This document shows positions 45,804 through 55,821 of a DNA stretch of 64,000 nt, piece after piece. The translations under genes and the position numbers were made by a program. The notes under the pieces are model-generated. The model was given only the letters and a program-made list of their open reading frames with translations. It was not told the origin of the DNA and did no database searches. Position 1 is the stretch's first letter. Every line of letters starts with the position of its first letter. Source of the stretch: Burkholderiales bacterium (GTDB lineage: Bacteria; Pseudomonadota; Gammaproteobacteria; Burkholderiales; Burkholderiaceae_E); the NCBI GenBank assembly GCA_026399835.1, contig JAPLQE010000044.1, forward strand, positions 62,001 to 126,000, read 5' to 3'.

Positions 45804-47108
45804 CTAGGACGCCGGCCGGATCCGCCCCGCCACCGCCCGCACCTTCCCCGGCGAGGCCCGCCAGACCGCGACGATCGACAGCAGCGATGCGCCGATCGCG
45901 AGCCAGAAGGCGGGCGCATAGGAGCCGGTCGCATCGTGGATGGCGCCGGCAACCCACGGCCCGGTCGCGCCGCCCGCGACCGAGGACAGCGACAGCACGC
46001 CGAAGACGCTGCCGTAGTGCTTGCCCTCGAAGATCTCGGCCGGCATCGCGCCGAACACCGAGGTCAGGCCGTAGCCGAGCGCACCCTGCACGATCACCAT
46101 CGTCCACAGCAGCAGCGGGCTGGGATGCGAGGGCAGCGCCAGCAGCGCGACGTAGGTCAGCACGAAGCCCAGGCTGCCGATCGCCCACACCGGCTCGCGC
46201 CCGATGCGGTCCGAGAGCTGCCCGAGCGCGATCTGCCCCGGCACGCCGGCGAGGCTGACCGCGCCCAGCGCCCAGGCCGCCTCGTGCGCGCTGAAGCCGA
46301 CCTCGAGCAGGTACTTGGTCTGGTGGACCTGCACCAGGTACCAGGCGAGCAGCCCGGTGAAGTAGCCGAGCGCCAGCCACCAGAAGCGCGCCGTGCGCAG
46401 CGCGCGCGCCAGCGTCCAGTCGGTCGCGGCCCAGGCCGCGTCGACGATGTTGGAGCGCCGCGCCGGACCCGCGCCGGGCAGGGGCGCGGCGTCGCCGTCG
46501 GGCCGCAGGCCGAGGTCCTCGGGGCGGCGGCGCAGCAGCAGGTTCAGGGGCGCCAGCACCACCAGCGTGACGATGCCCAGGCCGATGCAGGCGGTGCGCC
46601 AGCCGTGGCGCTCGATCATCGTCTGCATCAGCGGCAGCAGCAGGATCGAGCCCGCGCCGACGCCGGCGAAGGCGAGGCTGAGCGCCAGCCCCCGCCGTCT
46701 CACGAACCATGCCGGCAGCCACAGCGCCTGGCCCGAGTAGCCGAGGACCACGCTGCCCGCCCCGACACCCACGCCGAGCGTCAGGTACAGGTGCCAGGGC
46801 TGGCTGGTGAGGGTGGCGAGCAGCAGGCCCGCGCCGGTCGCGACCACGCCGAGCGTGCAGACGAAGCGCGGGCCGCGCGAGTCCATCGTGCGGCCGATCA
46901 GCGGGCTCAGGATGGCCGACACCAGGAAGCCGAACGAGAACACGCCGGCGGTCACCGCGCGGTCCCAGCCGAACTCGTCGAGGATCGGCGGATAGAGCAG
47001 CGAGAACGCGGTGCGCGCGTTGACCGCGACGCCCATCGACACGAAGACCACGGCCACGAGCAGCCAGCCGTAGTAGAACGGCAGGCGGCGGGCGAGCGAC
47101 TGCAGCAC
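45804..47108 (-). CDS. MFS transporter, OFA/monocarboxylate type
   Basis: Inner-membrane permease of 434 residues, twelve helices. It starts at GTG 47108 after AGGAGACCCGCC: 'LARRLPFYYGWLLVAVVFVSMGVAVNARTAF' is typical of OFA-like carriers (YGW motif), as are 'WFVRRRGLALSLAFAGVGAGSILLLP' and 'GLTSVFGAMPAEIFEGKHYGSVFG'. The family carries monocarboxylates such as formate or oxalate. Its gene lies 37 bases downstream of the phosphatidylserine decarboxylase gene on the same strand, so the two may share a transcript. Confidence 0.92.
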   Translation of the reverse strand: MLQSLARRLPFYYGWLLVAVVFVSMGVAVNARTAFSLLYPPILDEFGWDRAVTAGVFSFGFLVSAILSPLIGRTMDSRGPRFVCTLGVVATGAGLLLATLTSQPWHLYLTLGVGVGAGSVVLGYSGQALWLPAWFVRRRGLALSLAFAGVGAGSILLLPLMQTMIERHGWRTACIGLGIVTLVVLAPLNLLLRRRPEDLGLRPDGDAAPLPGAGPARRSNIVDAAWAATDWTLARALRTARFWWLALGYFTGLLAWYLVQVHQTKYLLEVGFSAHEAAWALGAVSLAGVPGQIALGQLSDRIGREPVWAIGSLGFVLTYVALLALPSHPSPLLLWTMVIVQGALGYGLTSVFGAMPAEIFEGKHYGSVFGVLSLSSVAGGATGPWVAGAIHDATGSYAPAFWLAIGASLLSIVAVWRASPGKVRAVAGRIRPAS

Positions 47109-47145
47109 GGCGGGTCTCCTGGAGGGCCCCCGATCGGGACGGCCT

Positions 47146-48018
47146 TCAGGGTAGCGCAGGCAGGCGCAGCAGCGGCCGACCCGCGCTGATGCGCGCGCCC
47201 GGCTCGACCCCCGCGCACGGCTCGAAGCCGCGCGGGGCGAACACGATGATCGTCGAGCCATGCTCGAAGCCGCCCAGCTCCTCGCCCTTCGCCACGGGTG
47301 CATTGCAGGCGATCTCGTCGGGCCCCTGGTAACGCAGGTGCAGGCGCAGGTCGAGGAACCGCAGCCGGATCGACGCGACCAGGATCGCCGCGACCGGCAC
47401 CAGCGCGATCGGATGCCCGCCTGCGTGCAGCCTCGCCCGCAGCACCGCGCGCTCGTTGCGGCAGAACAGCCGCTCGACGCGTGCGAGCGCGATCGGGTTC
47501 ACGTTCCAGGTGTCGCCGCTCAGATAGGTCACGTGCTGGATCGTGCAGTCGTGCGGCGCGTGGAAGCGGTGGTACATCGCCGAGGTCAGGCGCAGCGTCA
47601 CGAAGCAGCCATCGCGGAACGGACGCGTGTCCTGCGTCGGGCCGAACAGCTCCTCGATCGAATACGGGTAGCCCTTGGCCTGGTACACCCGGCCGTCGAC
47701 CACGCGGCCGCATTCTCCGACGATGCCGTCCGACGGACTCGCCAGCACCGCGGGGTCGGGGTCGAAGGGTCGCGCGCCCGGCACCAGCTCGCGCGTGAAG
47801 CAGTCGTGCAGGCTGAGGTAGCGCACCGGCGCCGCATCGCTCAGGTCGAGGTCGGTGAACAGCCGCCAGACGGCGATCGACGCGCGGCACAACCACGGAT
47901 TGCGGATCCGGCTGAATCGCCCCATCGCACGGGTCAGCGCGATCCGCGGCACGCGGTTGGTGAGGAGGAAGTTGAGATCCTCCTGCATGAAAACGGCACG
48001 CAGCGCACGCAAGGTCAT
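47146..48018 (-). CDS. psd: Phosphatidylserine decarboxylase family protein
   Basis: A 290-residue pro-enzyme that would cleave itself to form a pyruvoyl group. The processing site is FEHGSTIIVF: here HGST at 253-256 with Ser255, a variant of the LGST motif. Conserved parts are 'SPSDGIVGE', 'YSIEELFG' and 'FVTLRLTSAMYHRFHAPHDCTI'. It lacks a strongly hydrophobic N-terminus. It makes phosphatidylethanolamine if it uses phosphatidylserine; but its divergent partner (a PLP enzyme) and lipid-type neighbours raise the chance of a special lipid substrate. ATG at 48018; an ATG at 47988 (MQEDLN) is the alternative. Confidence 0.9.
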   Translation of the reverse strand: MTLRALRAVFMQEDLNFLLTNRVPRIALTRAMGRFSRIRNPWLCRASIAVWRLFTDLDLSDAAPVRYLSLHDCFTRELVPGARPFDPDPAVLASPSDGIVGECGRVVDGRVYQAKGYPYSIEELFGPTQDTRPFRDGCFVTLRLTSAMYHRFHAPHDCTIQHVTYLSGDTWNVNPIALARVERLFCRNERAVLRARLHAGGHPIALVPVAAILVASIRLRFLDLRLHLRYQGPDEIACNAPVAKGEELGGFEHGSTIIVFAPRGFEPCAGVEPGARISAGRPLLRLPALP

Positions 48019-48019
48019 G

Positions 48020-48059
48020 GTGGTGTCAAGCAGAACCGGTACACAGCACCCGACACCAC
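48020..48059. promoter_or_regulatory. Inverted repeat in the divergent psd/aminotransferase promoter
   Basis: GTGGTGTC (48020-48027) and GACACCAC (48052-48059) are perfect inverted repeats 24 bases apart within the 53-base gap between two divergent genes. TACACA (48040-48045), a possible -10 box, lies between them. A regulator or bent loop controlling both genes is plausible. Confidence 0.5.
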
Positions 48060-48071
48060 TGGGGCATCGGC

Positions 48072-49718
48072 ATGGAAGACACTTTCGCACTCTCCGCAGT
48101 CGCGCTCGCCGCACTCGCGCTCGCTCTGCCCCGCGTCAAGCGCCGCCTCGAACTCTCGCGGGCCAAGCACCGCTCGCTCGCAGGACACGCCCGGATGGCC
48201 AAGCGCGTGGTCGCGCAGATCCCGGGCTACGCCTACGACGAGGCGGCCTTCTTCGACTCCGACGGCGCCGTGCCCGAGGTGATCGCGCGCCGCCGCGCGG
48301 GGTTCGCACGGCTGGCGGCATCGCTCGCCGCACGCAGCCCCCGCACGCTCGAGGCGACCGCGGCGGCGCGCGAGGCGCTGTCCGACCTGCAGTTCACCAC
48401 CACCTACCGCGTGCCCTATCAGTACGGCCCGTACCTGCGTGCCCACCTCGCCACCGGCAGCATGCTGGCGGCCTCCAGCGGCGTGCAGGTCGAGGATCTG
48501 GACGGCAACCGCCTCTACGACCTCACCGGCTCGTACGGCGTGAACGTGCTCGGCTACGACGCCTACAAGGACTGCATCGACGAGGGCGCCGCGCGCGCCC
48601 GCGCGCTCGGTCCGGTACTCGGCGCCTACCATCCGGGCGTGCTCGAGGCGCTCGAGCGGATCCGCGCGCTCTCGGGGCTCGACGAGGTCTCGTTCCACAT
48701 GTCCGGCACCGAGGCGGTGATGCAGGCGGTCCGCCTGGCGCGCTACCACACGCGACGCTCGCACCTGGTCCGCTTCACCGGGGCGTATCACGGCTGGTGG
48801 GAGGACGTGCAGCCCGGCCCGGGCAACCCGCTTCCCCCGCGCGAGACCTACACGCTGCGCGAGGGTGACGCGCGCACGCTGCACGTGCTGCGCACGCGGC
48901 GCGACATCGCCTGCGTGCTGGTGAACCCGCTGCAGGCGCTGCATCCGAACTCGGCCGCGCCATCCGATGCATCGCTGGTGGACAGCGGCCGTGCCGCGGG
49001 CGCCGATCGGGCCGCCTACGCGGACTGGCTGCGCCAGTTGCGCGAGGTCTGCACCGAGCGCGGCATCGTGCTGATCCTCGACGAGGTGTTCACCGGCTTT
49101 CGCCTCGCGCGCGGCGGCGCGCAGGAATACTTCCGTGTCCAGGCCGACATGGTCGTCTACGGCAAGACGCTGGGCGGCGGCCTGCCGGTCGGGGTGGTCT
49201 GCGGCCGGCGCGACCTGATGCGCCGCTGGCGCGACGACCGGCCCGCCGACGTCTGCTTCGCCCGCGGCACGTTCAATTCGCACCCCTACGTGATCGGTGC
49301 GATGAACGCATTCCTCGACCGCTTCGAGCGGCCGGAGACCCGTGCGCTGTACGACGGCCTCGACGAGCGCTGGAACCGTCGCACTGCCCGGATGAACGCC
49401 GGCCTCGCCGAGGCGGGCGTACCGGTGCGGGTGGCGAACCTGAGCTCGATCTGGACGGTGCTCTACACGCGTCCTGCCCGCTACAACTGGCTGCTGCAGT
49501 TCTACCTCCGCGAACACGGCCTGGCCCTGAGCTGGGTGGGGACGGGGCGGCTGATCTTCAGCCTCGACTGGAGCGACGACGACTTCGAGGCGATGGTCGG
49601 ACGCTTCGTCGCGGCGGCGCGCGCGATGCACGCGGACGGCTGGTGGGACGGTCCCGATGCGAGCAACCGCTCGATCCGCCGCACCCTGCTCTCCGAGATG
49701 CTGCGCCGCCGCTTCTGA
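48072..49718 (+). CDS. Membrane-anchored class III PLP aminotransferase/aminomutase-like protein
   Basis: A 548-residue protein. Residues 5-20 form a membrane helix (FALSAVALAALALALP), followed by a basic stretch and a region of about 100 residues not found in glutamate-1-semialdehyde aminomutase. From about 120 it is a class III fold: SGTEAVMQAVRLAR (211-224), AYHGWWEDV (238-246), Asp337 in LILDEVFTGFR and PLP-lysine 365 in VYGKTLGGGLP. This is the GSAM-like branch, but the helix and length set it apart from the haem enzyme. Divergent from psd and close to lipid-type genes, it may act on a membrane-bound amino compound. Starts with ATG at 48072. Confidence 0.85.
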   Translation: MEDTFALSAVALAALALALPRVKRRLELSRAKHRSLAGHARMAKRVVAQIPGYAYDEAAFFDSDGAVPEVIARRRAGFARLAASLAARSPRTLEATAAAREALSDLQFTTTYRVPYQYGPYLRAHLATGSMLAASSGVQVEDLDGNRLYDLTGSYGVNVLGYDAYKDCIDEGAARARALGPVLGAYHPGVLEALERIRALSGLDEVSFHMSGTEAVMQAVRLARYHTRRSHLVRFTGAYHGWWEDVQPGPGNPLPPRETYTLREGDARTLHVLRTRRDIACVLVNPLQALHPNSAAPSDASLVDSGRAAGADRAAYADWLRQLREVCTERGIVLILDEVFTGFRLARGGAQEYFRVQADMVVYGKTLGGGLPVGVVCGRRDLMRRWRDDRPADVCFARGTFNSHPYVIGAMNAFLDRFERPETRALYDGLDERWNRRTARMNAGLAEAGVPVRVANLSSIWTVLYTRPARYNWLLQFYLREHGLALSWVGTGRLIFSLDWSDDDFEAMVGRFVAAARAMHADGWWDGPDASNRSIRRTLLSEMLRRRF

Positions 49719-49737
49719 GGCAGGCCGATCCGCCCGC

Positions 49738-50346
49738 TCAATGCCGCCGCGCGTGCGGCATCGGGTCGATCAGCTCACCGCGCAGCAGCGCGAGGGGCGC
49801 GCCGCGATAGAGGAGGGCATCGTGAAACGGATCGGTGAGGATCTTGAGCGCCCAGACCAGCCCGGTGGCGAGGTCGCGCTCGATCCACAGCTGCAGCACG
49901 CGCAACAGCACGCCGCCGACGCCGAGCGCGAACCAGGCGATCCCGACGTCGTGCAGGTACTCTCCGAAGCCGTTCGCCGGCTCGATCGTGCCGAACAGCG
50001 ACGGGCTCGCCCAGAGCAGCGCCGGCACGGCCGCCCACGCGCTCATCAGAACCACCTTGCGGCGGATGTTGTAGCCGACCTTCACTGCTTCCTTGTACTC
50101 GTCGGTGACCTCGTTGACATGGTCGTAGCCGCGCGGCTCGAAGAAGAAGTGGCCGGCCTGGCGCGTCGTCATCGACACGCCCCAGGCCAGCAGCGCCGCG
50201 GACGCCGGGTCCACCAGCACCAACAGGTAGGCGGCGATGAAGCACAGCGCGCTGACGAAGTGCAGCGTCTGGTTGATCCGGCTATGGTGATAGAAGCGAT
50301 GGTCGTCCCAGCGCTGGGTCGAGAGTTCCTGAAGCAGTGCCTTCAC
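49738..50346 (-). CDS. Membrane protein resembling Mpo1/DUF962 enzymes
   Basis: A 202-residue membrane protein with about four helices. It contains histidine motifs: FYHHSRINQTLHF (residues 18-30), SMTTRQAGHFFFEP (58-71) and DPFHD near 172. Mpo1-type (DUF962) proteins, iron-dependent dioxygenases that shorten 2-hydroxy fatty acids in yeast, share an 'H....N..LH' start and a 'Q..GH...E' second motif, so a similar role is possible. The likeness is by eye and remote. The start is GTG at 50346. It is convergent with the PLP enzyme and divergent from the glycosyltransferase. Confidence 0.6.
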   Translation of the reverse strand: MKALLQELSTQRWDDHRFYHHSRINQTLHFVSALCFIAAYLLVLVDPASAALLAWGVSMTTRQAGHFFFEPRGYDHVNEVTDEYKEAVKVGYNIRRKVVLMSAWAAVPALLWASPSLFGTIEPANGFGEYLHDVGIAWFALGVGGVLLRVLQLWIERDLATGLVWALKILTDPFHDALLYRGAPLALLRGELIDPMPHARRH

Positions 50347-50436
50347 ATCGGCCTCGTGGGTTCATCGGCACGGCGACGCCGCCGTGTCATGTGACTGGAG
50401 CATGAAGCCTGTTCGTGAAGGCTGCGTTACGGTGCT

Positions 50437-50456
50437 CGACCGTCATCGAACGGTCG
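50437..50456. promoter_or_regulatory. Dyad upstream of the glycosyltransferase
   Basis: CGACCGT (50437-50443) and ACGGTCG (50450-50456), spacer CATCGA. It lies between the Mpo1-like gene and the glycosyltransferase and could be an operator, or part of an mRNA leader. Confidence 0.4.
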
Positions 50457-50542
50457 TGCTCGGCAGGCATGCTCCGCAGATGGTCATCGAGGCGAAGCAC
50501 CCGGACACCGTGATCGCACGGTCAGCACGATCGTCCCGGCCG

Positions 50543-51739
50543 ATGCAGGTCGCCGTCGTCACGGAGACCTGGCCGCCCGAGGTCAACGGCGTCGCGAACA
50601 CGCTTGCCCGCATGGTCGGGGGCCTGCACGAGCGCGGTCACGACATCCGGCTGATCCGCCCCCGGCAGGCCACCGACGGCCCGCACGGTCCGGACGGCGC
50701 CATCGGCCGAGACGGCTTCGGCGAGGTCCTGACCCGCGGCATGCGGATTCCGCGCTACCCCCAGCTGAGGCTGGGCGTCCCCGCCCGGCGCCTGCTGTCG
50801 CGGCTGTGGTCCACGCGGCGCCCGGACATCGTCCACATCGCCACCGAAGGCCCCCTCGGCTGGTCCGCGCTGCAGGCGGCGACACGATTGAGGCTGCCGG
50901 TGGCGACCGACTTCCGCACGAACTTCCACGCCTACAGCGACCACTACGGCATCGGCTGGCTGCGCAATCCGATCGTCTCGTACCTGCGCACGTTCCACAA
51001 CCGCGCCGGCTGCACCCTGGTGCCGACCGAGGCGCTGCGCCGCGAGCTCGAGTCGTTCGGCTTCCAGCGGGTCCGGGTCGTCTCGCGCGGTGTCGACCCT
51101 CTGCTGTTTCGGCCCGAGCGCCGAAGCGACGCGCTGCGCGCCGCGTGGGGCGTGGCGCCGGAGGGCCTCGTCGTGGCCTGCGTCGGTCGGCTCGCTCCCG
51201 AGAAGAACCTCGCCACCGTCGAACTCGCGTTCGAGGCGATCCGCGCGGCACGGCCCGACGCGCGGCTGCTGCTGGTCGGCGACGGCCCGCTTCGCGCCGA
51301 GCTGCAGGCGCGACATCCGGACGCGCTGTTCGCAGGCCAGCGCAGCGGCGAGGACCTCGCGGCCCACTACGCCTCGGCCGACCTGTTCCTGTTCGCGAGC
51401 CTGACCGAGACCTACGGCAACGTGACCAACGAGGCGATGGCGAGCGGGTTGCCGGTCGTCGCCTTCGACTACGCCGCAGCCGCCCAGCTGATCCGTCAGG
51501 ACGTCTGCGGCGCACTGGTGCCCTGCGGTGACCGCGCCGCCTTCGTCGCGACCGCGCAAGGCCTGGCCTGCGACGCGGACCGCCGGCGCCGGCTGGGCGC
51601 GGCGGCGCGCACCGTATCGGAGTCGCTCGGCTGGGACACCGTGGTCGAGCGCTTCGAGCAGTCCCTGTCGACCGTCATCGCAGAGTCCGGTCTGGTTCCG
51701 GACGATGCCGCACTCGTCGCACGGGTGCCGACGGTGTGA
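50543..51739 (+). CDS. Glycosyltransferase family 4 (MgtA/SqdX-like)
   Basis: A 398-residue GT-B enzyme. N-terminal domain: 'VAVVTETWPPEVNGVANTLARMVGGLHERGHDIRLIRPRQ' and 'DFRTNFHAYSDHYGIGWL'; C-terminal domain: 'VACVGRLAPEKNLATVELAFEAIR', 'FLFASLTETYGNVTNEAMASGLPVVAFDYAAA' with the EX7E donor motif. The NGVANTL start is typical of bacterial mannosyl/glucosyltransferases that glycosylate diacylglycerol or GDP-mannose-dependent lipids. An in-frame ATG at 50402 after GGAG would add 47 residues of unrelated sequence; I prefer 50543, though it lacks a ribosome-binding site. Confidence 0.9.
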   Translation: MQVAVVTETWPPEVNGVANTLARMVGGLHERGHDIRLIRPRQATDGPHGPDGAIGRDGFGEVLTRGMRIPRYPQLRLGVPARRLLSRLWSTRRPDIVHIATEGPLGWSALQAATRLRLPVATDFRTNFHAYSDHYGIGWLRNPIVSYLRTFHNRAGCTLVPTEALRRELESFGFQRVRVVSRGVDPLLFRPERRSDALRAAWGVAPEGLVVACVGRLAPEKNLATVELAFEAIRAARPDARLLLVGDGPLRAELQARHPDALFAGQRSGEDLAAHYASADLFLFASLTETYGNVTNEAMASGLPVVAFDYAAAAQLIRQDVCGALVPCGDRAAFVATAQGLACDADRRRRLGAAARTVSESLGWDTVVERFEQSLSTVIAESGLVPDDAALVARVPTV

Positions 51740-52188: not shown

Positions 52189-52668
<480 letters not shown>

Positions 52669-52688
52669 CCCCACCCGAGGCCCGACCC

Positions 52689-55025
52689 ATGGCTCAGACC
52701 GCCCCCGCCGACGTCAACGCCGGCCGCTACGGCAGCGGCCACTCGGTGCGCCGCATCGAGGATCCCGCGCTCGTCGCCGGCGCAGGCCGCTACGTCGACG
52801 ACGTGTCGCTCCCCGGCCAGGTGCACCTGGTGATGCTGCGCTCGCCGTACGCGCACGCCCGCATCCGCGCCATCGACGCGAGCGCCGCGCTCGCGATGCC
52901 CGGCGTCATCGCCGTCTACACCGGCGCCGACCTGCTCGCCGCCGGCGTCAAGACGATGCCCACGCCCGGCCCCTTCCCGCGCCCGGACGGCAAGCCCTCC
53001 AACGTGCCGCCGCTGCAGGCGCTCGCCACCGACACCGTGCGCTACGTCGGCGAGGCGGTCGCCGCCATCGTCGCCGAGACCCGCGACGCGGCCCGCGAGG
53101 CGCGCGACGCCGTCGAGGTCGACTACGAGGACCTGCCCGCCGCCGTCGACCTCGAGGACGCGCTCGCCGAGGGCGCGCCGCTGGTCTGGGGCCCGGCCGG
53201 CGACAACTGGGCCGCGCAGGCCCGCCACGGCGATGCCGCCGCGTCCGACGCGGCCTTCGCGCGCGCCGCGCACGTGGTCGCGCTCGACCTGACGAACCAG
53301 CGCGTGGCCGCGGTCGCGATGGAGCCGCGCGGCGTGCTCGCCTACCCCGATGCCGAGTCCGGCAAGCTCACGCTGCGCCTGTCGACGCAGATGCCCTCGG
53401 GCTCGCGCGACACCGTCGCCGACGTGCTCGGCCTCTCGAAGGACCAGGCCCGCGTGGTCGTCGGCGACGTGGGCGGCGGCTTCGGCATGAAGACCGGCGC
53501 CTATCAGGACGACGTGGTCGTCGGCTTCGCGGCCAAGACCCTCGGGCGCCCGGTCAAGTGGACCGCCGAGCGCGGCGAGGAGTTCCTCGTCGGGCGCGCC
53601 GGCCGCGACTGCCGCAGCCACGCCGAGCTCGCGCTCGACGCCGACGGCAAGATCCTCGCGCTGCGCATCCGCACCGACGCCAACGTCGGCGCCTACGCCA
53701 CCACCACCGGCGTCGTGATCCAGCTGCTGATCGGCCCCTGGGTCTCCACCAGCATCTACCACGTGCCGGTCATCGACTTCGACCTGCGCGCGGTGCTCAC
53801 GCACACCGCACCGGTCGGCGCCTACCGCGGCGCCGGGCGCCCCGAGGCGATCTACATCATCGAGCGGCTGATGGAAGCGGCCGCGCGCAGGATGGGCATC
53901 GACCAGGGCGAGCTGCGGCTGCGGAACATGATCGCGCCGGAGCAGATGCCCTACACCAACCCGATGGGGCAGACCTACGACACCGGCAACTTCCCGTCGA
54001 TCGCGAAGCAGGGCCTGGCCCTCGCCGACTGGTCCGGGTTCGATGCGCGCGCCGCGCAGTCCAAGGCGCGCGGCAAGCTGCGCGGCCGGGGCCTGGCCAC
54101 CTTCCTCGAGTGGACGGGCGGCAACCAGTTCGAGGAGCGCGTGACGGTCGACGTGTCGGCCGACGGCTTCATCGAGATCTACACCGCCACCCAGGCGATG
54201 GGCCAGGGCATCGCGACCAGCTACGCGCAGCTCGCCGTCGACGTCTTCGGCGTGCCGATCGAGCGCGTGCGCATCGTGCAGGGCGACACCGACCGCGGCG
54301 TGGGCTTCGGCAGCGCCGGCTCGCGCTCGCTGTTCACCGGCGGCTCGGCGGTGCGGGTCGCCTCGCAGCGCACGATCGAGCAGGCCAAGGATCTCGCGGC
54401 CGATGCGCTCGAGGCCTCGGCCAAGGACATCGAGTACCGCGAGGGCAGCTTCTCGATCGTCGGCACCGACCGGCAGATCGGGCTGTTCGAGCTGGCGGGC
54501 AGGCAGTCCGAGCGCCGCGTCTACGTCGACTCCACCAGCACCGTCTCCGGCCCCACCTGGCCGAACGGCTGCCATGTCTGCGAGGTCGAGGTCGACCCGG
54601 ACACCGGCGAGGTCGAGGTCGTCGCATACGCGTCGGTCAACGACGTGGGCCGGGTGGTGAACCCGACCATCGTCGTCGGCCAGCTCGACGGCGGCGCGGT
54701 CCAGGGGCTGGGCCAGGCGCTGTGCGAGCAGGTCGTCTACGACCGCGACTCGGGGCAGCTGCTCACCGGCACGCTGAGCGACTACGCGCTGCCGCGCGCA
54801 GACCTCGTGCGCAGCTTCCGCACCGAGCTCGACCAGTCGGTGCCGTCGATCAACAACCCCCTCGGGGTCAAGGGCGTGGGCGAGCTGGGCACGATCGGCG
54901 CGACGCCGTGCGTGGTCAACGCGGTCATCGACGCCCTGGCCCGCGCGGGAGCCACCGAACGGGCCCAGGCGATGCAGATGCCGCTGGTGCCCGAGACGGT
55001 CTGGCGCGCGCTGCACGGAGCCTGA
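52689..55025 (+). CDS. Molybdenum-binding large subunit, CoxL form II-like
   Basis: A 778-residue xanthine-oxidase-family catalytic subunit. It begins 'GSGHSVRRIEDPALVAGAGRYVDDV' and has GGGFGMKTG, the active-site loop AYRGAGRPE (378-386) and the catalytic Glu732 in GVGELGTIG. True aerobic CO dehydrogenases (form I) have AYRCSFR; AYRGAGR marks form II enzymes, whose substrates are aldehydes or N-heterocycles, not CO. The CO role is therefore unlikely. Start: ATG at 52689. Ends four bases before the next ATG. Confidence 0.95.
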   Translation: MAQTAPADVNAGRYGSGHSVRRIEDPALVAGAGRYVDDVSLPGQVHLVMLRSPYAHARIRAIDASAALAMPGVIAVYTGADLLAAGVKTMPTPGPFPRPDGKPSNVPPLQALATDTVRYVGEAVAAIVAETRDAAREARDAVEVDYEDLPAAVDLEDALAEGAPLVWGPAGDNWAAQARHGDAAASDAAFARAAHVVALDLTNQRVAAVAMEPRGVLAYPDAESGKLTLRLSTQMPSGSRDTVADVLGLSKDQARVVVGDVGGGFGMKTGAYQDDVVVGFAAKTLGRPVKWTAERGEEFLVGRAGRDCRSHAELALDADGKILALRIRTDANVGAYATTTGVVIQLLIGPWVSTSIYHVPVIDFDLRAVLTHTAPVGAYRGAGRPEAIYIIERLMEAAARRMGIDQGELRLRNMIAPEQMPYTNPMGQTYDTGNFPSIAKQGLALADWSGFDARAAQSKARGKLRGRGLATFLEWTGGNQFEERVTVDVSADGFIEIYTATQAMGQGIATSYAQLAVDVFGVPIERVRIVQGDTDRGVGFGSAGSRSLFTGGSAVRVASQRTIEQAKDLAADALEASAKDIEYREGSFSIVGTDRQIGLFELAGRQSERRVYVDSTSTVSGPTWPNGCHVCEVEVDPDTGEVEVVAYASVNDVGRVVNPTIVVGQLDGGAVQGLGQALCEQVVYDRDSGQLLTGTLSDYALPRADLVRSFRTELDQSVPSINNPLGVKGVGELGTIGATPCVVNAVIDALARAGATERAQAMQMPLVPETVWRALHGA

Positions 55026-55029
55026 TGCG

Positions 55030-55821
55030 ATGAACAACTTCCAGTTCCACCGTCCCGCCACCGTCGCCGACGCCACCCGCGCGCTCGCCGGCACCGACGA
55101 CGGCCGCTTCCTCGCCGGCGGCCAGTCGCTGCTGCCCGCGATGAAGATGGGCCTGTCCGCGCCCAGCGATCTCGTCGAGCTCGCGCGGATCCCGCAGCTG
55201 AAGGGCATCCGCGTCGAGGCCGGTGCGCTCGTCGTCGGCGCCGGCACCTCGCATGCCGCGGTCGCCGCGAGCGACGTGGTGCGCGGCGCGATCCCCGCGC
55301 TCGCCCACCTCGCCTCGCTGATCGGCGATCCGGCGGTGCGCACCGCCGGCACGCTCGGCGGCAGCATCGCGCTCAACGACCCGGCGGCCTGCTATCCGGC
55401 CGGCGTGCTCGGGCTGGGCGCGACCATCCGCACCGACCGCCGCACGATCGCTGCCGACGACTTCTTCACCGGCGTCTACACCACCGCGCTCGAGCCCGAC
55501 GAGCTGATCGTCGAGGTCTCGTTCCCGATCCCGGCGAAGGCGAGCTGGCAGAAGTTCAAGCAGCCGGCCTCGCGCTTCTCGCTGGTCGGCGTGTTCGTGT
55601 CGAGCGGCCCGGCGGGCGTGCGCGTCGCGGTCACCGGCGCGGGTCCCGGCGTGTTCCGCGTCACGGCCTTCGAGCAGGCGCTCGCGCGCGGCTGGTCGGC
55701 GTCCGCGCTCGACGGTCTGAAGGTCGACGCATCGTCGCTGAACACCGACCTGCACGCGACGGCGGACTACCGCGCGCACCTCGTCGGCGTGCTCGCGAAG
55801 CGGGGCGTCACCGCGGCCTGA
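55030..55821 (+). CDS. FAD-binding medium subunit, CoxM-like
   Basis: A 263-residue flavin subunit: FAD motifs FLAGGQSLLPAMKMGL (32-47) and TAGTLGGSIALNDPA (about 113-127), a typical medium-subunit arrangement. It completes the S-L-M set (small 52189, large 52689, medium here), translated in one operon with spacers of 20 and 4 bases. It is followed by a terminator. Confidence 0.95.
   Translation: MNNFQFHRPATVADATRALAGTDDGRFLAGGQSLLPAMKMGLSAPSDLVELARIPQLKGIRVEAGALVVGAGTSHAAVAASDVVRGAIPALAHLASLIGDPAVRTAGTLGGSIALNDPAACYPAGVLGLGATIRTDRRTIAADDFFTGVYTTALEPDELIVEVSFPIPAKASWQKFKQPASRFSLVGVFVSSGPAGVRVAVTGAGPGVFRVTAFEQALARGWSASALDGLKVDASSLNTDLHATADYRAHLVGVLAKRGVTAA

Follow-up and report, generated by a model that had tools for sequence, protein, structure and literature searches.

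A set of four adjoining genes at positions 47146-51739 of a 64-kb stretch of DNA from a Burkholderiales bacterium probably constitutes a PhoB-controlled, phosphate-starvation module for the remodelling of membrane lipids. The whole stretch, referred to here as the window, is part of contig C23 of a 4.95-Mb genome assembly. The genes, together called the cassette, encode a phosphatidylserine decarboxylase (PSD), a class III pyridoxal phosphate (PLP) enzyme, an Mpo1-like protein and a glycosyltransferase of family 4 (GT4). This assignment, which extends to the Pho control as well as to the module, draws on evidence of sequence, namely the linkage and co-occurrence of the genes, Pho boxes at the level of the family, the neighbouring genes, the separate clade of the second PSD, the intact PLP site and a natural fusion of two of the proteins. 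The module is most likely related to the known PlcP-Agt route of lipid exchange. An initial annotation of the window had proposed that the four genes act together on envelope lipids, and linkage, co-occurrence, fusion and lipid-gene neighbours make this very likely; the phosphate-starvation setting, absent from that annotation, is the main clue. The locus is laid out as follows.

47146-48018, minus strand: PSD, second copy, of the HGST clade (ATG aligning with relatives; the open reading frame is open to 48114)
48019-48071, strand not applicable: divergent region between the PSD and PLP genes
48072-49718, plus strand: class III PLP enzyme, acyl-aminotransferase-like, with an N-terminal helix and an extension of about 100 residues
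49738-50346, minus strand: Mpo1-like multi-helix protein, putative non-haem iron oxygenase
50440-50457, plus strand: Pho-box-like site CCGTCATCGAACGGTCGT, between the Mpo1-like and GT4 genes
50543-51739, plus strand: GT4 glycosyltransferase resembling glycolipid synthases (other in-frame starts at 50480 and 50384)

The order and strands of the genes, two divergent pairs, are those given originally. Starts were corrected from relatives, placing that of the PSD at 48018 and that of the GT4 probably at 50543 or 50480, and the starts of the long open reading frames were dropped.

Linkage and co-occurrence

The four-gene set recurs in more than 100 of the bacterial genomes examined. At least 574 relatives of the PLP protein were found at E 1e-3 in a scan of public species genomes, and the best 80 of these, mostly from Burkholderiales and Rhodocyclales, were examined. 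The PSD gene is linked in 79 of the 80 and the Mpo1-like gene likewise in 79, with a GT4-type gene in place in 72; in two loci the contig ends close to the PLP match (31 bases before it in L117 and 0.6 kb after it in L084). These counts describe the closest relatives, and farther ones were reached by searches of the class and the phylum. The genome of the window being included in each case, the PLP protein has matches in 18 of 41 near genomes (E 1e-60), 11 of 369 genomes of the class (E 1e-90) and 25 of 398 Pseudomonadota genomes (E 1e-90). The Mpo1-like gene is also found in 25 of the 398, and 24 genomes carry both, with one having the PLP gene only and one the Mpo1-like gene only. The PLP match of the former (G519) sits on a 4.4-kb contig, and the latter (G651) is a bin of 78% completeness in which the contig ends within the GT gene. 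The 20 loci from the phylum search include a PSD in 19, an Mpo1-like gene in 19 and a glycosyltransferase of some kind in 17. In two genomes (loci L047 and L048) the PLP and Mpo1-like proteins form a single protein, with the Mpo1-like part at the C terminus.

Linkage persists from α- to γ-proteobacteria with differing flanks (for some genomes the class was deduced from gene content together with kinship labels), and for this reason the grouping of the four genes is more than chance. The neighbourhood search suggested in the initial annotation thus disposes of a linkage confined to this genome, the outcome named there as fatal to the proposal, as the PSD and Mpo1-like genes are linked in near and far relatives alike. 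The loci share descent, and the counts are not of independent events. A housekeeping psd locus (L050) was excluded from the tallies, and removal of 7 duplicate loci left 119. Five metagenome bins (L074, L093, L101, L116 and L122) are titled Bordetella parapertussis or Klebsiella pneumoniae; the titles look misassigned, and their cassettes resemble those of environmental Burkholderiales.

Pho boxes in the divergent promoters

Promoters were scanned with the Pho-box consensus CTGTCATNNNNCTGTCAT (CTGTCAT-N4-CTGTCAT), taken from PMC8528852, at a threshold of at least 11 of 14 positions. Of 120 loci, 96 PSD/PLP regions and 80 Mpo1/GT regions are divergent with a usable gap. Boxes are present in 25 of the 96 PSD/PLP regions, where 1.1 would be expected from first-order random sequences, and in 41 of the 80 Mpo1/GT regions, where the expectation is 1.9. 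Spacers of 2, 3, 5 or 6 bases instead of 4 reduce the number to 1-3 and 1-7 regions, respectively, and forty permuted heptamers give means of 2.3 and 2.6. Upstream of the housekeeping psd, used as a control, there are no matches in 20 regions at 11 of 14 and three at 10 of 14.

The window site at 50440-50457 matches at 11 of 14 and is the sole such match in the 64 kb; its first heptamer is kept in three close relatives. A weak Pho-box-like match (10 of 14, 48012-48029) in the PSD/PLP region of the window overlaps the PSD start codon and is not claimed. Judged by promoter boxes, membership of the Pho regulon is supported at the level of the family, and the window taken alone is not significant.

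Neighbouring phosphate and lipid genes

Neighbours were surveyed to a distance of 7 kb at the 119 non-redundant loci, 74 of which have at least 5 kb on both sides. Because the queries came from cassette loci, the survey is biased towards matches there; the control is a single kind of locus, the housekeeping psd, in 20 cassette-bearing genomes. A phosphate gene (PlcP in 37 loci, PPX in 4, PstB, PPK1 and PhoD in 3 each, PhoX in 2) lies near 46 of the 119, and a lipid gene (LplT in 39, PmtA in 13, OlsB-like in 11, GT28 in 10, BtaA/DUF3419 and OlsF in 3 each) near 70. One or the other is near 85 of the 119 loci, compared with none of the 20 around the housekeeping psd, and a UDP-glucose dehydrogenase is near 15. 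Each type of neighbour is missing from all 20 control loci. In a pairing of 20 cassette loci with 20 control loci of the same genomes, 6 cassette loci have phosphate genes nearby and 14 have genes of one kind or the other, whereas no control locus has any.

One representative of each neighbour type was named by family search. Those of LplT, PstB, PPK1, exopolyphosphatase, OlsF and nucleotide-sugar dehydrogenase score above the NCBIfam cut-off, those of PmtA, PhoD, GT28 and OlsB fall below it, and PhoX and DUF3419 were named by Pfam. We take DUF3419 to be BtaA, and the LpxH-like phosphoesterase is presumably PlcP. The counts given are those at the stricter thresholds; the looser clusters comprised 6 loci for PPK1 and 5 each for PhoX, PhoD and PPX. 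A cluster of ABC-transporter ATPases from 11 loci was rejected as PstB, being mixed, with a match of PstB grade in 3 of 119. BtaA was rejected as a regular partner, with its 3 loci of 119, and was not found in this genome. Linkage of PlcP to the glycosyltransferase is not seen here, the plcP of this genome being on another contig (G000:C74).

A hydrophobic protein recurs within 7 kb in 8 of the 119 loci (among them L034:12355-13152, L053:11095-11925, L055:2075-2875 and L116:2890-3705). It adjoins the PSD in L053, L055 and L116, and two copies that were scored have no Pfam family. In the window itself, a major-facilitator-like gene (45804-47303, minus strand) adjoins the PSD and does so at no other PSD, and a xanthine dehydrogenase-like operon (52189-55821, plus strand) is otherwise present only in the closest loci (L031, L056 and L057); both were named by eye. 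Because of this restricted distribution, the transporter and the operon seem to lie outside the module.

A second phosphatidylserine decarboxylase

The PSD of the cassette is a family member by curated cut-offs, scoring 177 bits with PF02666 (cut-off 22) and 150.7 bits with TIGR00163 (cut-off 111.75), and has the xGST self-cleavage site from which the pyruvoyl group is formed. The variant HGST form of this site, noticed originally in the window protein, is present there as FEHGSTIIVF and proves to be a trait of the family: of the 93 gene calls for cassette PSDs 89 have it, and of the 21 housekeeping copies none does; the latter have L/M/G-GST in 15 cases and no clean motif in 6. Phylogenetic analysis of 40 sequences, 25 from cassettes and 15 housekeeping, splits the two groups with 96/98 support (6 short or divergent housekeeping PSDs were excluded, and one of the housekeeping sequences sits on a very long branch).

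This genome has two PSD copies. At least two are present in 29 of 32 cassette-bearing genomes, and a single one in 17 of 20 cassette-free relatives. The three cassette genomes with one PSD are the fusion-type G131 and G354, in which no PSD is linked, and G125, where the contig stops 0.3 kb beyond the Mpo1-like gene. The possibility that the cassette psd is the only, essential one, which the initial annotation had allowed would undo its proposal, is rejected, a housekeeping psd also being present in this genome. The cassette protein resembles its housekeeping counterpart in passing the TIGR00163 cut-off and in having a GST self-cleavage motif, but it forms a separate clade, has HGST rather than L/M-GST, is an extra copy and, at family level, has Pho boxes nearby. 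It probably acts on phosphatidylserine (PS).

The PLP enzyme

The PLP enzyme scores 116.1 bits with PF00202 (cut-off 30.5), with the domain running from residue 133 on. The added helix and roughly 100 extra N-terminal residues noted originally are borne out by the predicted structure, in which a helix at residues 2-31 is followed by about 100 residues before the domain. The model has a class III fold and a mean predicted local distance difference test score (pLDDT) of 81.6, with low confidence at residues 36-48. The residues of the PLP site (Lys365, Asp337, Tyr239, Ser211-Gly-Thr and Thr400) are invariant in alignments of 12 and 44 rows. Score, fold and the PLP lysine with its partners all place the protein among the class III aminotransferases.

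Among solved structures, fold and profile comparison both rank first the aminotransferase domain of the mycosubtilin synthase MycA (PDB 6kfm), which has a profile E of 2.5e-62, 27% identity and template-modelling scores of 0.82 by target and 0.68 by query. Glutamate-1-semialdehyde 2,1-aminomutase (GSAM, or HemL) is the next-nearest solved relative, at a best profile E of 1.2e-44. The MycA domain, which works on a fatty-acyl chain, aminates a keto-acyl substrate. It is closest to the cassette enzyme by both measures and has a lipid-chain substrate; the cassette enzyme differs in being free-standing, in its N-terminal helix and extra residues, and in its setting among phospholipid genes.

The initial annotation had likened the PLP enzyme to GSAM. 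The suggestion that it is the GSAM of the haem pathway, or a generic transaminase, in an accidental grouping can appeal to a secondary match with hemL (TIGR00713, 170.6 bits) and to the class III fold and PLP-site residues that the two enzymes share. That score is, however, far under the cut-off of 527.3, the genome has a separate hemL scoring 569 bits, the nearest solved relative is of acyl type, and the linkage is widely conserved. Identity with GSAM/HemL is accordingly rejected, and an accidental grouping around either kind of enzyme is extremely improbable.

The Mpo1-like protein

Yeast Mpo1 is an iron-dependent 2-hydroxy fatty acid dioxygenase. The cassette protein shares with it His-rich motifs and a helical, membrane-type character; it differs in being sub-threshold for the Pfam family, in being tied to the PLP enzyme and in being fused to that enzyme in two loci. 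His16, His20, Asn25, His29, Gln63, His66 and Glu70 are invariant in alignments of 43 and 11 rows. Of the original description as a four-helix protein with Mpo1-like His motifs, the motifs therefore stand, the His residues being invariant, but the predicted structure has more than four helices. The model is confident and all-helix (pLDDT 89.8), and comparison with solved structures gave no trustworthy match (best Foldseek E 1.1; best VIA-align Z 3.9), which does not show a new fold. The protein is a putative non-haem iron oxygenase.

A second Mpo1-like paralogue adjoins an argD-type class III PLP gene in a Bradyrhizobium-like genus, in which 8 second-copy loci were read, of 18 matching genomes (L228:7523-9628 in G721, L232, L234, L237, L240, L243, L246 and L247). 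The one such neighbour scored, in L228, is an ordinary argD, acetylornithine transaminase, and the arrangement may be plain synteny.

The glycosyltransferase and the PlcP-Agt route

Many aquatic and soil bacteria survive low phosphate by exchanging phospholipids for phosphorus-free lipids. In the papers concerned, the known exchange is that of PlcP-Agt, reported for P. aeruginosa (PMC8528852) and for marine heterotrophs (PMC4796936), and the published routes combine PlcP with the synthesis either of a glycolipid or of a betaine lipid (BtaAB) (PMC4796936, PMC8528852). The cassette resembles PlcP-Agt in its Pho boxes, its GT4-type glycosyltransferase, its PlcP and UDP-glucose dehydrogenase neighbours and its likely glycolipid output. 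It differs in that its core is made up of the PSD, PLP and Mpo1-like proteins, with PlcP merely an optional neighbour.

The original assignment to GT4 is upheld by PF13439 and PF00534/PF13692, which are over their cut-offs. The glycolipid synthase equivalogs are below theirs (NF053787, the best NCBIfam model, at 139.1 versus 480 bits and NF049988 at 75.4 versus 400). The glycosyltransferase varies between cassettes: it may be a GT4, an enzyme of the Agt type or part of a fusion, and in some loci none was found. In the fused type (L046:10843-13551, L167:11349-14174, L169, L170, L176, L177 and L178) it is joined to an N-terminal part with His/Asp motifs, which we take from these motifs to be PHP-like, although Pfam does not confirm this. 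PlcP has no match in the three genomes of this type that were checked (G085, G753 and G417), so the fusion may replace PlcP.

If the GT4 alone mattered, and the PSD, PLP and Mpo1-like proteins were passengers or general housekeeping, the locus would be an instance of the ordinary PlcP-Agt glycolipid route. Such an interpretation is in keeping with the likeness of the GT4 to glycolipid synthases, sub-threshold as it is, and with the frequent presence of PlcP nearby (37 of 119 loci). It accounts poorly for the persistence of the PSD-PLP-Mpo1 trio while the glycosyltransferase varies, and for PLP and Mpo1-like proteins that occur together in 24 of the 26 genomes having either and are sometimes fused. 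We consider it improbable.

Proposed mechanism and its alternatives

In essence, shortage of phosphate would lead PhoB to turn on both divergent pairs. PSD would then convert PS to phosphatidylethanolamine (PE), and the PLP enzyme, held at the membrane by its N-terminal helix, and after it the Mpo1-like oxygenase would act successively on one membrane lipid. The aminoethyl head group of PE would be transaminated to an aldehyde, which would undergo O2-dependent oxidation, and the GT4 would add glucose or glucuronic acid to diacylglycerol released or made by PlcP. Action of the PLP and Mpo1-like proteins in sequence on one lipid is suggested by their co-occurrence, by hydrophobic helices evident in sequence and model, and by the natural fusion. 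PE is favoured as the substrate because PSD, PmtA, LplT and PlcP all act on it or on its kin. The assignment of the PLP-Mpo1 step to PE head-group chemistry is nonetheless tentative.

The same Pho module could equally well run in the opposite direction, and we hold this to be just as likely as the head-group chemistry. The Mpo1-like protein would make a lipid carbonyl and the PLP enzyme would aminate it, giving an undescribed phosphorus-free aminolipid in place of PE, with the GT4 adding a glycolipid. The fatty-acyl substrate of the MycA domain points this way, as do the PLP-Mpo1 fusion and the makers of phosphorus-free lipids near some of the 119 loci (OlsB-like, GT28, OlsF and BtaA, in the numbers given above). 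On the other hand, such a scheme leaves the second PSD with no clear role, and the conserved core has neither an acyltransferase nor a dehydrogenase.

Several observations weigh against a Pho-controlled module that remodels PE. The highest counts for permuted heptamers are 17 of 96 and 21 of 80 regions, and fragments of the motif, TGTCA for example, occur in some of these best heptamers. A single Pho-box match in 64 kb is no more than chance would give (1.65 expected), and the box in the window therefore counts only together with those of the family. The flanking genes of the window are unlike phosphate or lipid genes. PlcP is not obligatory, being present in 29 of 32 cassette genomes versus 12 of 20 cassette-free ones, and it alone would suffice were the removal of PE the sole purpose. 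Both fusion-type loci, and their genomes, are without a second PSD. The MycA domain, closest to the PLP enzyme among solved structures, works by adding an amine, not by removing one, and the Mpo1-like protein does not reach the gathering cut-off of PF06127 (21.6 bits versus a curated 24).

Significance

The physiology to which the cassette is assigned is already known; its core enzymes are undescribed. Neither a PSD nor a PLP enzyme is named in the accessible parts of the PlcP-Agt papers PMC4796936 and PMC8528852, and the words "decarboxylase" and "aminotransferase" are absent from their main texts. A literature search, with preprints and most subscription journals outside it, returned no paper describing the four-gene set, none combining PlcP, phosphatidylserine decarboxylase and phosphate, none that mentions a PSD, a PLP enzyme or an Mpo1-like protein in the exchange of lipids under phosphate starvation, and none placing a bacterial Mpo1-like protein in a pathway.

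The cassette provides a pathway context for such a protein in bacteria, and the conserved set could add a new membrane lipid, a new route or a new form of lipid recycling. It is possible, if doubtful, that a membrane-anchored, acyl-type aminotransferase and an Mpo1-like iron oxygenase, fed by their own PSD, build an aminolipid without phosphorus as a substitute for PE in phosphate-starved cells. If true, this new bacterial lipid chemistry would extend over the Burkholderiales with their kin, a Bradyrhizobium-like genus and several γ-proteobacterial genomes. The PLP protein has at least 574 relatives when the threshold is loose, the best 80 having been examined, so the cassette may be common.

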